This document shows, piece by piece, positions 41,606-47,074 of a DNA stretch of 47,074 nucleotides. Position numbers and translations under genes: made by a program. Each line of letters opens with the position of its first letter. Within the stretch, counting starts at the first letter, position 1. Under the pieces are notes generated by a model, which was not told where the DNA came from, did no database searches, and was given only the letters and a program-made list of their open reading frames with translations. Source of the DNA: Nanobdellota archaeon (lineage in GTDB: Archaea > Nanobdellota > Nanobdellia > SCGC-AAA011-G17 > PNOQ01); the NCBI GenBank assembly GCA_018829185.1, contig JAHJUI010000023.1, positions 1 to 47,074 on the forward strand, read 5' to 3'.

Positions 41606-42370
41606 CTAACAAATTAAAGAACTTTTCCCTAATCCAGAACCAAAATCAACAGCTCCTTTTAGAGTTAAATTAGTTTCTCCAAATACATTCTCTACTTTTC
41701 CCAAATCAACATCAAAAGTAAATAATTTCCCATTATTGCTCCAATTAAAATTAGAACTTCCCCAACAACCAACATTATCTCCACAACTATCAATAACACC
41801 CTTAACCTCTAAAACTTTAAGCATTACTTGGTCTAAATCATAATCAACAATATATGTTAAAGTGGGATTAACTTCATAATCAACATGAATATTTTCTAAA
41901 TCTCTTGAATAAATTAAATTATCTGATTTGCCAATTACTTTCAATCCATTTGTATCTTTTTCAAAAGTAAACTCAAAATCTCCATTTAAATTAATTTTAT
42001 CTAAATCTTCAACAATAGTTTTATTTAAGTAAGAACTCAATGCTCCCTTAATTGTGTCTTCAGTTGGATAACATTCATTAACATCTCTTTTCCATAAAAC
42101 ATATTCATTTTCCTTGTTCTTACTTTCAAAAAATCCCCCATTCAACAAAAGTTCATTCAAAGAATCTGAAAAACCATATTCTAAAGATTTATCCATATAC
42201 ATTAAATCTGCTTCTACTTCATCAAAAACATTATACAATAAAATAGAACTTAATCCAGTAGCTCTTTCAATCGGAGAAGAATTAGTTAAAACCAACCAAG
42301 AAGTCCAGCCCAATATTATAATTGTCACTACCAATAATGTAAATGACCAATAATCTCCTTTTTTATTCAT
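41606..42370 (-). CDS. Pilin-like secreted protein
   Basis: N-terminus MNKKG|DYWSFTLLVVTIIILGW (class III signal-like). Confidence 0.65.
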   Translation of the reverse strand: MNKKGDYWSFTLLVVTIIILGWTSWLVLTNSSPIERATGLSSILLYNVFDEVEADLMYMDKSLEYGFSDSLNELLLNGGFFESKNKENEYVLWKRDVNECYPTEDTIKGALSSYLNKTIVEDLDKINLNGDFEFTFEKDTNGLKVIGKSDNLIYSRDLENIHVDYEVNPTLTYIVDYDLDQVMLKVLEVKGVIDSCGDNVGCWGSSNFNWSNNGKLFTFDVDLGKVENVFGETNLTLKGAVDFGSGLGKSSLIC

Positions 42371-43311
42371 GGGGGGTTTGCCTCCCTAAAATGTTCATAA
42401 ACGTTCTTAGCAATAATTTTCATTTCATAAAGATGATTAATTTTCCATGTACCTAATTTAAGGTGATCGGATGCTTTGGGGGATAAATAATTATAAAGAT
42501 ATTTCCCAGGATCATTTTTTACGTCTTCTGTTATTTTTATTTTTCCTAACCAAATATTTTCATTATAAGTAGATATTATCAAAAGTAAATAATCTTTAGG
42601 CACCCCATTTATTATGTAAAGCATATCTTCCGCTTTTACCCTATTCCTTGCTTCTTCTGTTGGGCCAGCAGGAGTATTCAAGGCAGATAACTTAGCACTT
42701 AAAGATACGTAAGTATGCTCCTGTTTCCAAGCTTCTTGCAATCCAGGATGAGTATCTGCAACTAAACCGTATGTAGCTGCAATACCTTGTACATCATCAA
42801 ACCAAACCTTAGTTCCAAGAACATTATATTTATTTATTGCAACCAAATCCCCATTTTTATCTATAGTATGAACAGTCTCCAATAAATCTCCTTGCCCAAT
42901 CATTTTTAAATAAGATTCAGCAAACAAAATCTCTCCGTTCTTACATTCAATACTAAACAACCATTTCAAATTATAACTAGCAGGATTAGTCAAAGACTCC
43001 GCATTCTGAGCTAAAACCATATAATTCCTAGTTTTCAAAACCAATTCCCCAATATAACTTTCATTTACACAAGCAAGTGCAACTAAATCATTCATCTCCA
43101 TTTCTTTTCCATCAACAATAACTTGTTCCCATAAATAATTAGTAAAAATCAAGCTTCCATGGGTTGAATATTCTGCAATCAATTCTCTATCATGTGTAGT
43201 TCCTGTTTTAAGACTTAATTGATTAAAAATAACAAAATAAGCAAATAAAAGAAAAGTTAATACAATTATTATAAAGAAGTTCACCAAAAATTCTTCGCCT
43301 TTCTTATTCAC
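42367..43311 (-). CDS. Pilin-like secreted protein
   Basis: MNKKG|EEFLVNFFIIIVLTFLLFAYF. Confidence 0.65.
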   Translation of the reverse strand: MNKKGEEFLVNFFIIIVLTFLLFAYFVIFNQLSLKTGTTHDRELIAEYSTHGSLIFTNYLWEQVIVDGKEMEMNDLVALACVNESYIGELVLKTRNYMVLAQNAESLTNPASYNLKWLFSIECKNGEILFAESYLKMIGQGDLLETVHTIDKNGDLVAINKYNVLGTKVWFDDVQGIAATYGLVADTHPGLQEAWKQEHTYVSLSAKLSALNTPAGPTEEARNRVKAEDMLYIINGVPKDYLLLIISTYNENIWLGKIKITEDVKNDPGKYLYNYLSPKASDHLKLGTWKINHLYEMKIIAKNVYEHFREANPP

Positions 43312-43795
43312 TTTCTACCACCATTAAACTCAGATAACCTGGTTTTAATTTCCCATTTTCATTTATTAAAACATAATCTTTTCTTACCCAACAATCAAAA
43401 CCAACCGGATTTTTAGTATCACATAAAGATAAAAAAGCCCTAGCCTTATCATTAGTTACAAAACTCCCATAATTTTTTCCATTTATTTCTTCTAAACTAA
43501 CATTAAATCCTATTTTGTCTGGTAAAACTAAACAAGTATTAATTCTACTTAAATCAAATTTAGTCGGATCAATTATTCCTTGATAAACTCGATCATTCTC
43601 TTCAAAAGCCAAACAGTTCTCAGACCTAATCAATCTTTGACTAACAATAAAAGTTTCTTCTATAATTATATCTATATCTCTTGCAACAAATAAATTAAAT
43701 ATAGTTAAAATAACAGCCACAACAACTATTAATAAAAATAATCTAAAAATAAATTTAATAAACTCTCCTGGCAAATCTTCCCCTTTTTTATTCAT
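43304..43795 (-). CDS. Pilin-like secreted protein
   Basis: MNKKG|EDLPGEFIKFIFRLFLLIVVVAV; start trimmed to the internal Met. Confidence 0.65.
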   Translation of the reverse strand: MNKKGEDLPGEFIKFIFRLFLLIVVVAVILTIFNLFVARDIDIIIEETFIVSQRLIRSENCLAFEENDRVYQGIIDPTKFDLSRINTCLVLPDKIGFNVSLEEINGKNYGSFVTNDKARAFLSLCDTKNPVGFDCWVRKDYVLINENGKLKPGYLSLMVVESE

Positions 43796-43796
43796 T

Positions 43797-44654
43797 CTAA
43801 CTAGCCTCATAAGCCGGGAAAGGTCTTAACTCCCCGCACATCTTATTCAAATCCGTTTTACTATACATACTAACTGTTGCAGCAAGTCTATCTGGAGCTT
43901 TTGCACCCCCAAAAAAGGCACCAACAATCGCTGCTCCTCCTACAACAACACCAGCTACTGCATTAACTCCAGGGATTGCAAATAAAACAGCACTTGCAGC
44001 TAATCCCCCCCCAACCATAGCTTTAGCTTTTGTTCCAGTATCCACAAAAAATGACTCAACAGCTCCGTCTTTAACTACATTAAACACAACCCAATATTCT
44101 TTATCCAATGGAAGATATGATTTATCAGCAGGATCTGGATTATATCTAGCTCCTTTAGTTCCAATTAAATATTCTGAATAAGTCTCTCCACCCAACGGGA
44201 CATTATGATTATTTAAATAAGTAAATAATTCATTAACAGTAATTCCCCCAGGATAATTAACTCTTGTTTGATCACTAAAAGTAAATTGAGAACAAACATA
44301 ACATTTAGATACACTATTCAATTTATAATCTGTAAGGAAATCTACTTTTCCACTTCCAAACTGCCAATAACACCAAAACATTTCATCTGCCATGTCCTTC
44401 AACATAATATCTTTTGTTTCTATATCATAATTATAATAATATGTTCCACAATTAAAATTCTCAGTAACTCCTTTTCCGCCCCTTAAAGTTTTAGATAAAC
44501 CAGCTATCTTTACACTTTGCAAACAAGCTTCTCTTAATCCATATTTTCCAGTCTCCCTTAAAAAAGTAGTAGAAAAAATAATCAATATAACTCCAATTAA
44601 AATAATTCCAATTACAACTACTAAATTAGATATCCCTTTTTTACCTGAACGCAC
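43797..44654 (-). CDS. Pilin-like secreted protein with second hydrophobic Gly/Ala-rich segment
   Basis: MRSGKKG|ISNLVVVIGIILIGVILIIF; MVGGGLAASAVLFAIPGVNAVAGVVVGGAAIVGAFFGG. Confidence 0.65.
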   Translation of the reverse strand: MRSGKKGISNLVVVIGIILIGVILIIFSTTFLRETGKYGLREACLQSVKIAGLSKTLRGGKGVTENFNCGTYYYNYDIETKDIMLKDMADEMFWCYWQFGSGKVDFLTDYKLNSVSKCYVCSQFTFSDQTRVNYPGGITVNELFTYLNNHNVPLGGETYSEYLIGTKGARYNPDPADKSYLPLDKEYWVVFNVVKDGAVESFFVDTGTKAKAMVGGGLAASAVLFAIPGVNAVAGVVVGGAAIVGAFFGGAKAPDRLAATVSMYSKTDLNKMCGELRPFPAYEAS

Positions 44655-44745
44655 TAAAAATCCCCCCCGAAACAGCTTGCCAAATTAAAAATATTAAAAA
44701 AAATGCTAATATCCAACCCATTACTCTTATTGCACTTACTTCCAT
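44641..44745 (-). CDS. 34-aa single-TM micropeptide within the pilin-like operon
   Basis: Manual translation MEVSAIRVMGWILAFFLIFLIWQAVSGGIFSAFR; 14-nt overlap with the next gene. Not in the ORF track. Confidence 0.5.
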   Translation of the reverse strand: MEVSAIRVMGWILAFFLIFLIWQAVSGGIFSAFR

Positions 44746-44770
44746 AAATTAGAATTATATTCTGTCCTAT

Positions 44771-45187
44771 TTAAATATTTTCATCAGCATCAAAGAAAAC
44801 ATTATCTTGCTCAATTTGTACACTTAACTTATTGACATCTCCAAACTTAGCATCCACTATATTCATCTGCTGATTAATATCTAAAAAGCAAAAATAAGAA
44901 TTTTGTTTACTTCCGTCAAACGCTTCTTGAAAAAATTTAACTTCGCATCCAGGTAATTGTTCAAAACTATAAATTCCTGCTCGGCTCTCCATATCCATTT
45001 CTACTTTTAACCCATTATTAACTATCATAGCAGAACTTTCTAACATTCCAAAATCCTTAGCTAAAAACTCTCTTTCAAAAGATTCATTTCCAATATTAGA
45101 TTTCATAAAAATAGCCAAGCTTCCCATTACAATAACCACTATCCCAATATAATACAATTGCAAAACCATTTTTTGACTCATTCCCAT
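44771..45187 (-). CDS. N-terminally anchored secreted protein (pilin-like operon)
   Basis: MGMSQKMVLQLYYIGIVVIVMGSLAIFM. Confidence 0.6.
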   Translation of the reverse strand: MGMSQKMVLQLYYIGIVVIVMGSLAIFMKSNIGNESFEREFLAKDFGMLESSAMIVNNGLKVEMDMESRAGIYSFEQLPGCEVKFFQEAFDGSKQNSYFCFLDINQQMNIVDAKFGDVNKLSVQIEQDNVFFDADENI

Positions 45188-45188
45188 T

Positions 45189-46712
45189 TTAAACCATTAT
45201 ATTTTCTGAATTATAAACAATTTGTTTTCCATTAGGATTATAAACCCAAACATTAAATAAATTAGCACCATCTGCACTATCCGGTAAACTCAAACCATTT
45301 GCTATCTCTCCTAATCCAGCATAAATATCTATTTGACATCTATTATCAATTGTATAAGAACCAGTATCTTCTGCAACATACCATCCAGTCCATTCTCCTT
45401 TATCATATCCGCTTTTTGGTTCAATATAAACATATGAACCTAAAGGAATATAACATTCTGTCCCTTCTTTAATATTTACTGCAATAGTTTTAAACGCTCT
45501 TGGACCAGTATTAACTGTAGTTTTTCCTAACATATCTGAAGGTGGATCATTACATCCAGTTGAATCGTGTTTAATACATTTGTAAGTATAAGTTATAAAA
45601 TTATTATCAACTCCTGAACCTTGACATTTAACAGCTTCATAAAATCCTTTTGGATATTTTACGCATGCTGCGATACCTCCCAGATTCTCTTCATTAGTTG
45701 TGGTCCATGAATTGTAATCTCCTTGATAAGCTGTAACATAATGACTCAACATTAAATTTAAAGAAGACTCTGCTAATGGTTTAGACTGCCTAAAAAATTC
45801 AGATTTTGGCCAACTTTGGGGATTATTTGCCTGAATAATACTTCCATCGACCCTAATTGAATCAACTTCTATATCCAAATAAGCTAAAGAATCTGCAGGA
45901 GAACTAGGAAAACTATAAGTTCTACTAGATGGAGCTATGCCCCCGATTAACAAAGATGGGTTAATATTATATTTAGCAAGAATTTCCATTCTTTTACTTG
46001 GATCAGCTTTTGCAATATCGATATCTTGTTGTGTAATTCCTAAAGCTTCAAAATTAATTTGAATAAACTCCTCGGTTTGCCCTTCTATAAACGCTTGCCC
46101 AGGAACTTGACCTGGTGTCTGGAAAACAGTTAAATCATCATACAAATTATCTTTTGAAATATAAATTATCTTACTAAAATAATTAATATAATAAGGTGCT
46201 TTTCTATTGGAATATATTTCAACTGGTTTTCCAAGATTATAATCCGGAACGCCACCTGAATTAATAAAAACTTCATCCCTTGTTGCTTCTTCATTTTCAA
46301 AAACATGACAATAAGAATATTTTTCGCAACTAGAACTAGTTTTTAACAAAGGCATAAATCCTAAAACCTTAATTTGTTTTTTTTCTGCAGCACAAACACA
46401 CAAACAAGTTTGCCCTTCACATTCAAAAGGCCTAGTTGCTCCGTGATTTTTATCTGCATCAAAACCAATTAAAGAACAACCACTATTAATATGGAATAAT
46501 CTAACCCCATAATTCACTTCTCCTGCTTTTATAGAGTCTACTATTTCCTGCATTTCATCCACAATATAATCTGTGCCCTCACATTCCCCATCTAATCCGA
46601 AAATAGATTTAAACAATTGCGTGGCCAGATCTCCAACACCAAAAATTAAAATAATTGCAATAACTACATAGATTAATGCTTTAACACCCATGCTTAATGA
46701 ACCTTTTTTCAT
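45189..46712 (-). CDS. Large pilin-like secreted protein, Cys-rich
   Basis: MKKG|SLSMGVKALIYVVIAIILIFGVG; 507 aa; GQTCLCVCAAEK. Confidence 0.65.
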   Translation of the reverse strand: MKKGSLSMGVKALIYVVIAIILIFGVGDLATQLFKSIFGLDGECEGTDYIVDEMQEIVDSIKAGEVNYGVRLFHINSGCSLIGFDADKNHGATRPFECEGQTCLCVCAAEKKQIKVLGFMPLLKTSSSCEKYSYCHVFENEEATRDEVFINSGGVPDYNLGKPVEIYSNRKAPYYINYFSKIIYISKDNLYDDLTVFQTPGQVPGQAFIEGQTEEFIQINFEALGITQQDIDIAKADPSKRMEILAKYNINPSLLIGGIAPSSRTYSFPSSPADSLAYLDIEVDSIRVDGSIIQANNPQSWPKSEFFRQSKPLAESSLNLMLSHYVTAYQGDYNSWTTTNEENLGGIAACVKYPKGFYEAVKCQGSGVDNNFITYTYKCIKHDSTGCNDPPSDMLGKTTVNTGPRAFKTIAVNIKEGTECYIPLGSYVYIEPKSGYDKGEWTGWYVAEDTGSYTIDNRCQIDIYAGLGEIANGLSLPDSADGANLFNVWVYNPNGKQIVYNSENIMV

Positions 46713-46891
46713 CTTTTTGGAAAGGTAGATACAGTATCATTAGCTAAATGAAGTGTATCCTTAAAAAAACTTAAGGCTTTACTTAAACTGCCCATTACAC
46801 TTTCTCTAAAAATAATCAAAATAACTAATAAAACTAAAATAGCTAAAATCATTATAACAACTGTAGACATCTGGATATCTCCTTTTTTCAT
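46709..46891 (-). CDS. Small pilin-like protein
   Basis: MKKG|DIQMSTVVIMILAILVLLVILIIF, 60 aa. Confidence 0.6.
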   Translation of the reverse strand: MKKGDIQMSTVVIMILAILVLLVILIIFRESVMGSLSKALSFFKDTLHLANDTVSTFPKR

Positions 46892-46970
46892 AAACAGAAA
46901 TTACTTTTATAATTATATAAAGGTTTTGTTAGAATAGCTCTGGTGCAACCCTATAATTTTTAAATAAAAA

Positions 46971-47004
46971 ACCTCTAAGGTTTCTGTAAAGAAACCAAAG
47001 AGGT
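46971..47004 (+). promoter_or_regulatory. SD-sequestering 5'UTR hairpin with GNRA tetraloop
   Basis: ACCTCT-AA-GGTTTCT-GTAA-AGAAACC-AA-AGAGGT; 3' arm is the SD (AGAGGTG) 7 nt before ATG at 47012. Confidence 0.7.
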
Positions 47005-47011
47005 GAATCCA

Positions 47012-47074
47012 ATGAATAATGAATATTCAGATTATTTAAAGTTTATTGATGATGCTTTAGAGCTTGCTAAAGCC
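47012..47074 (+). CDS. N-terminus of a truncated CDS (runs off the window)
   Basis: ATG AAT AAT GAA ... MNNEYSDYLKFIDDALELAKA, preceded by an SD. Confidence 0.6.
   Translation, partial: MNNEYSDYLKFIDDALELAKA

Follow-up and report, generated by a model that had tools for sequence, protein, structure and literature searches.

A Shine-Dalgarno-sequestering hairpin at the left end of an archaeal IS5-type insertion sequence and its probable role against read-through transposase RNA

Results and discussion

An IS5-type element at the contig end

The window, i.e. the whole stretch of DNA that was analysed (47,074 nucleotides), is the entire contig C23 of an 827-kb genome of the Woesearchaeales assembled in 27 contigs. 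The final 175 bases have matches at 12 further sites of the genome, nearly all at contig ends, and the segment common to these copies begins with A-GCTCTGGTGCAACCC at position 46936. The following features were located at this end of the window:

46914..46921 (-), TATA box of a host promoter (TTTATATA), 14 bp from the IS end and preceding the ORF 46709-46891 (-)
46928..46935 (no strand), left copy of the 8-bp target-site duplication GTTAGAAT, with a 9-nt match from 46927; an identical word flanks the right IS end where contig C15 begins (L027)
46936..47074 (+), left end of an IS5-type insertion sequence, recognised by the multicopy match and cut off by the end of the contig
46936..46951 (+), terminal inverted repeat AGCTCTGGTGCAACCC, which left and right ends share without change; other genomes have related ends of the GGCTCTGGTGCA type
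46959..46966 (+), TATA box TTTAAATA of the putative transposase promoter, with maximal consensus score
46971..46985 (+), 5' arm of the hairpin, ACCTCT-AA-GGTTTCT, the anti-Shine-Dalgarno arm according to the fold and to the differing complementary arms in relatives
46986..46989 (+), GTAA loop, with the predicted native transcription start at about 46989 (first T of the TATA box + 30)
46990..47004 (+), 3' arm of the hairpin, AGAAACC-AA-AGAGGT, from the fold
46999..47005 (+), transposase Shine-Dalgarno (SD) sequence AGAGGTG, read from the sequence; most relatives have a GAGGTGA-like motif
47012..47074 (+), first 21 codons of the transposase (MNNEYSDYLKFIDDALELAKA), which continues in other copies

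The exact terminal repeat occurs 21 times in the genome, always near contig ends and facing outward, comprising 10 left ends that lead into the hairpin and the transposase start and 11 right, inverted ends; the copy number of the IS in the 827-kb genome is about 11. Left and right flanks are joined by exact 8-bp duplications in 10 pairs, and the window pairs with the start of C15 via (T)GTTAGAAT. The contig stops at 47074 because the assembly left the multicopy IS unresolved. Two points had not been mentioned in the first-pass annotation of this DNA: the contig end is a collapsed repeat, a multicopy IS that holds the hairpin within its first 70 bp, and the hairpin is preceded by a TATA box at a distance of 4 nt.

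The gene beyond the window edge, which that annotation had suggested identifying by extension, could be traced through the other genomic copies and is an IS5-type transposase rather than a host gene. Its reading frame from 47012 reaches more than 80 residues in the copy at C5. Elsewhere in the order, full-length relatives hit the profile PF01609 DDE_Tnp_1 (4.6e-19), and NF033579 IS5 scored 150.1 bits (cut-off 140) in one relative and 116.6 in another; the family assignment comes from these full relatives, the window's own transposase being known in part only. Those relatives from the genome collection that have a name carry the labels Woesearchaeota, Nanoarchaeota, and Parvarchaeota. In common with the IS5 family, the element has DDE_Tnp_1/IS5 transposase relatives carrying PF01609, the short terminal repeat AGCTCTGGTGCAACCC at both ends, 8-bp duplications in 10 pairs and, in genome G111, a length of about 0.97 kb, while the NCBIfam IS5_2 cut-off was passed by only one of two relatives tested. 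Within this family the element may belong to the ISH1 group, which has 8-bp duplications. The hairpin is thus part of the left end of an IS5-type element and not the leader of a host gene.

Some further observations concern the element and its kin. The 0.9-Mb genome G111 contains dozens of terminal-repeat copies of the 0.97-kb relative (L207-L216); there the duplications are 9 bp long, and about ten copies are complete within contigs. MITE-like elements of about 90-110 bp lie between terminal repeats of the IS group in G047 (L217, L218) and G038 (L222), L219-L221 are candidate MITE-like elements, and some short elements adjoin TATA boxes. Near the terminal repeat of the right IS end (L009-L011), the 3' coding end of the transposase holds an inverted repeat, AATTAATTGCTT / AAGCAATTAATT, possibly owing to conserved YNLDRK codons or to an RNA structure at the 3' end.

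A hairpin covering the transposase SD

Sequence and fold agree on a hairpin at 46971-47004 that consists of two perfect helices, a symmetric AA/AA internal loop and a GTAA loop. In the outer helix ACCTCT (46971-46976) pairs with AGAGGT (46999-47004), in the inner helix GGTTTCT (46979-46985) with AGAAACC (46990-46996). The SD lies in the 3' arm, with 6 nt between AGAGGTG and the ATG at 47012-47014. All of these elements had been described in the first-pass annotation and are borne out here. The region 46940-47074 folds with -34.8 kcal/mol (z = -4.55), and none of 200 dinucleotide shuffles was equally stable. By hiding the transposase SD the hairpin should render translation conditional, as had been claimed before, and both the fold and the pairing conserved in relatives support this.

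Intrinsic termination in archaea relies mostly on U-runs, and no U-tract is present 3' of the hairpin, so the terminator that the first-pass annotation had already regarded as unlikely is rejected. The hairpin also overlaps the SD. Although bacterial ISs have 5' terminators for a like purpose (PMC2965389), we therefore give very little credit to a hairpin that halts incoming RNA polymerase.

Complementarity is kept across relatives while the stems are rewritten

Relatives throughout the phylum carry a hairpin at the equivalent place between terminal repeat and start codon, although their transposases have diverged to roughly 30-60% mutual identity in the cases scored. The stems themselves differ, e.g. 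GGGCTC/GAGCCC with a CTTTT/AAAAG helix, TAGTAGTTC/GAACTACTA, or AAATAGCACC/GGTGCTATTT. Alignment of the leaders with MAFFT followed by RNAalifold yielded no consensus structure, because the stems have no common sequence and are of unequal length. The covariation check that had been proposed for this leader is therefore answered in part: complementarity is maintained and the stems are rewritten with compensatory changes, but the alignment provides no consensus fold.

Pairing was then assessed as a duplex between the upstream segment and the 20 nt ending with the start codon, with dinucleotide shuffles of the upstream part as null. Among 35 elements, which include three copies from the window's genome and are not all independent, 20 reached p<0.05 and 15 reached p<0.01 (Fisher 6.5e-23), compared to 0 of 36 ordinary genes of the window. 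The window copy alone is marginal (p=0.047), and two other copies from the same genome are not significant. In an SD-anchored pair table, which relies on the minimum-energy fold of each sequence, the columns beside the SD contain up to four standard pair types. The initiation region is also less accessible in the elements than in ordinary genes (p=8e-10). For the window copy, shuffling of the upstream sequence did not lower the pairing of the wider initiation region (p=0.56), a measure in which the SD signal is diluted.

The same data bear on a function of the hairpin as DNA. Its position in the subterminal region of the IS would suit a palindrome bound by the transposase or a host protein, with an incidental overlap of the SD. 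Since relatives keep the complementarity to SD and spacer but not the sequence of the arm, this candidate was rejected, and we regard it as highly improbable.

In the distant members L140, L142, L143, L146, and L132 a GC-rich hairpin is followed by a second one near or enclosing the start codon.

The predicted native transcript starts in the loop

Most close relatives have TTTAARTA at element position +22 to +26, though their hairpin sequences differ. To place the start we used the window's own ORFs: in 6 of the 12 with a strong upstream TATA box, the distance between the first T of the box and the start codon is exactly 30 nt. These genes look leaderless and would set the spacing between TATA box and transcription start. 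Applied to the transposase promoter, this spacing predicts a native start at about 46989 (46959 + 30), the last base of the GTAA loop, hence a native RNA without the 5' arm. For the window copy the folding energy changes from -25.3 kcal/mol for the whole element 5' end to -5.6 kcal/mol for the native 5' end.

Starts were predicted in the same manner, i.e. from our own TATA consensus, in 24 elements that had been selected for an SD paired upstream and among which the G000 copies are not independent; in 24 of 24 the start so placed is 3' of the arm that pairs with the SD and 5' of the SD itself, where random placement would give 0.52 per element (p=1.8e-7). In 31 of 35 elements (p=3e-8) the predicted native RNA leaves the initiation region more accessible than the read-through RNA does, which alone is weak, as shortening of an RNA itself raises accessibility; the duplex test and the accessibility comparison with ordinary genes are the controlled ones.

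These results also affect the regulatory roles proposed in the first-pass annotation, which had named a transcript start inside the hairpin as an argument against them. The start is computed to lie exactly there, in the loop, as a prediction from the TATA calibration. An RNA thermometer, a riboswitch, or a protein-bound autoregulatory element of a host gene would agree with a stable stem that occludes the SD. However, the gene is an IS transposase, an Rfam search of the whole window returned no family at gathering score, and in relatives stem sequence, length, and loop vary freely, with no conserved binding motif seen. With the wrong kind of gene and a native leader predicted to begin in the loop, regulation by temperature, ligand or protein was rejected and is hardly credible for this locus.

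Protection from transcripts that enter the element

We consider it probable that the hairpin is a 5' safety device by which transposase RNA initiated outside the element is silenced while the native RNA escapes. Transcripts entering from outside would carry both arms, fold and hide the SD, so that little transposase would be made. Transcription from the promoter within the element (TATA 46959-46966) would begin in the loop and give an RNA that lacks the anti-SD arm and is translated from a 23-nt leader. The condition sensed would be the origin of the transcript, own promoter or outside, and transposition would thereby be decoupled from host transcription around the insertion. Copies, duplications, hairpin, TATA box, calibration, conserved complementarity, and the position of the predicted start can be read from the sequence; from these we infer an active promoter, folding of the RNA in the cell, and a block of translation.

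In 1985 Davis, Simons and Kleckner reportedly found IS10 (Tn10) and IS50 (Tn5) to be protected from external promoters. In both elements an inverted repeat near the left end hides the start signals in read-through RNA, and the native start lies inside the repeat. The archaeal element resembles them in a left-end repeat that hides the translation start, and its native start is predicted to lie within the repeat as well. It differs in having a TATA promoter, in its IS5-type transposase, in its occurrence in Woesearchaeota and in belonging to a diverse group with freely evolving stems, and the hiding of the start in RNA from outside was obtained by computation only. If the protective role is true, the IS10/IS50 principle of a ribosome site hidden in foreign-started RNA reaches the archaea, and hiding in read-through RNA would be under long-term selection, with stems rewritten repeatedly while pairing is maintained.

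Translation-hindering structures in the leader of transposase mRNA are likewise found in IS200, where RNA secondary structure causes repression (Beuzon et al. 1999, cited in PMC2965389), and in ISPpu9, whose 5'-UTR buries the ribosome binding site and whose weakening raised reporter expression 26-fold (PMC8450116). By analogy with ISPpu9, the hairpin could be a general translational damper in an RNA that starts upstream of it, at an outside promoter or one in the terminal repeat, and could perhaps be opened by antisense RNA or a host factor. Hairpins near the start codon in some distant members are in line with this. However, in ISPpu9 the structure is part of the native mRNA, and antisense RNA was proposed to open it (PMC8450116), while the native mRNA of the archaeal IS is predicted to be without the 5' arm. 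A strong TATA box at a fixed place just upstream of the hairpin in close relatives, and predicted starts between SD-pairing arm and SD in all elements so examined, make a damper rather unlikely. Silencing of read-through RNA, the reading we prefer, does not account for every member: in the distant members G036, G055, G250, G255, and G210 the hairpin lies near the start codon and could be retained by the native RNA.

Insertion beside host promoters

The host TATA box at 46914-46921 lies 30 nt from a leaderless start codon at 46891 (-). Similar arrangements are frequent. Among 77 IS ends from G000, G028, G065, G111, and other genomes, with TATA boxes called by consensus, scores of at least 14 occurred 35 times at offsets 13-16 from the IS ends, compared to 2.6 expected from other offsets, and scores of at least 15 occurred 23 times (0.6 expected). 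In the window's genome all 10 paired insertions have a TATA box at offsets 13-15 (p=1.4e-8). The box stands on one side of most insertions, and either IS end can face the promoter. The flanks resemble BRE + TATA (e.g. CGAAAGGTTTATAAA), often with an ATG about 30 nt beyond. We favour promoter-targeted insertion over purging of harmful insertions, because purging alone is expected to leave broad distances and not the narrow peak seen in these flanks. TATA-adjacent insertions were noted in several genomes (window 46914-46935, L016-L036, L207-L246).

In bacteria, TnGBS, ISLre2, and some ISKra4 elements (Mutator-like) have their insertion sites 15-17 bp upstream of sigma-A promoters; for TnGBS an interaction with the transcription initiation complex was proposed (PMC3942029). 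A fixed short insertion distance upstream of host promoters is shared with the archaeal IS, while the transposases are unrelated to IS5-type DDE_Tnp_1; moreover, the archaeal IS uses BRE/TATA promoters, generates 8-9 bp duplications, and can face the promoter with either end. For archaeal IS5 elements a literature search, with most subscription journals outside its range, found no report of promoter-adjacent insertion.

Tentatively, and with somewhat less than even confidence, we propose a phylum-wide IS5-type group that combines insertion 13-16 bp upstream of BRE/TATA, probably guided by TBP/TFB, with a rapidly evolving silencing hairpin. Since the target TATA is near-symmetric, stray divergent transcripts from that same promoter would run into the element, where the hairpin would silence them, and both traits may therefore be coupled. 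While the hairpin represents a known principle in a new setting, the insertion pattern merits its own study. It suggests that an archaeal transposase reads promoters, in analogy to TnGBS in bacteria and Ty3 in yeast, and IS insertions provide a natural means of locating promoters in DPANN archaea that are uncultured.

The minus strand at 41606-46891 encodes proteins that have M(N)KKG or a similar motif at the start and a hydrophobic stretch behind it and resemble archaeal pilin-like proteins; the IS sits just upstream of the first promoter of this cluster.
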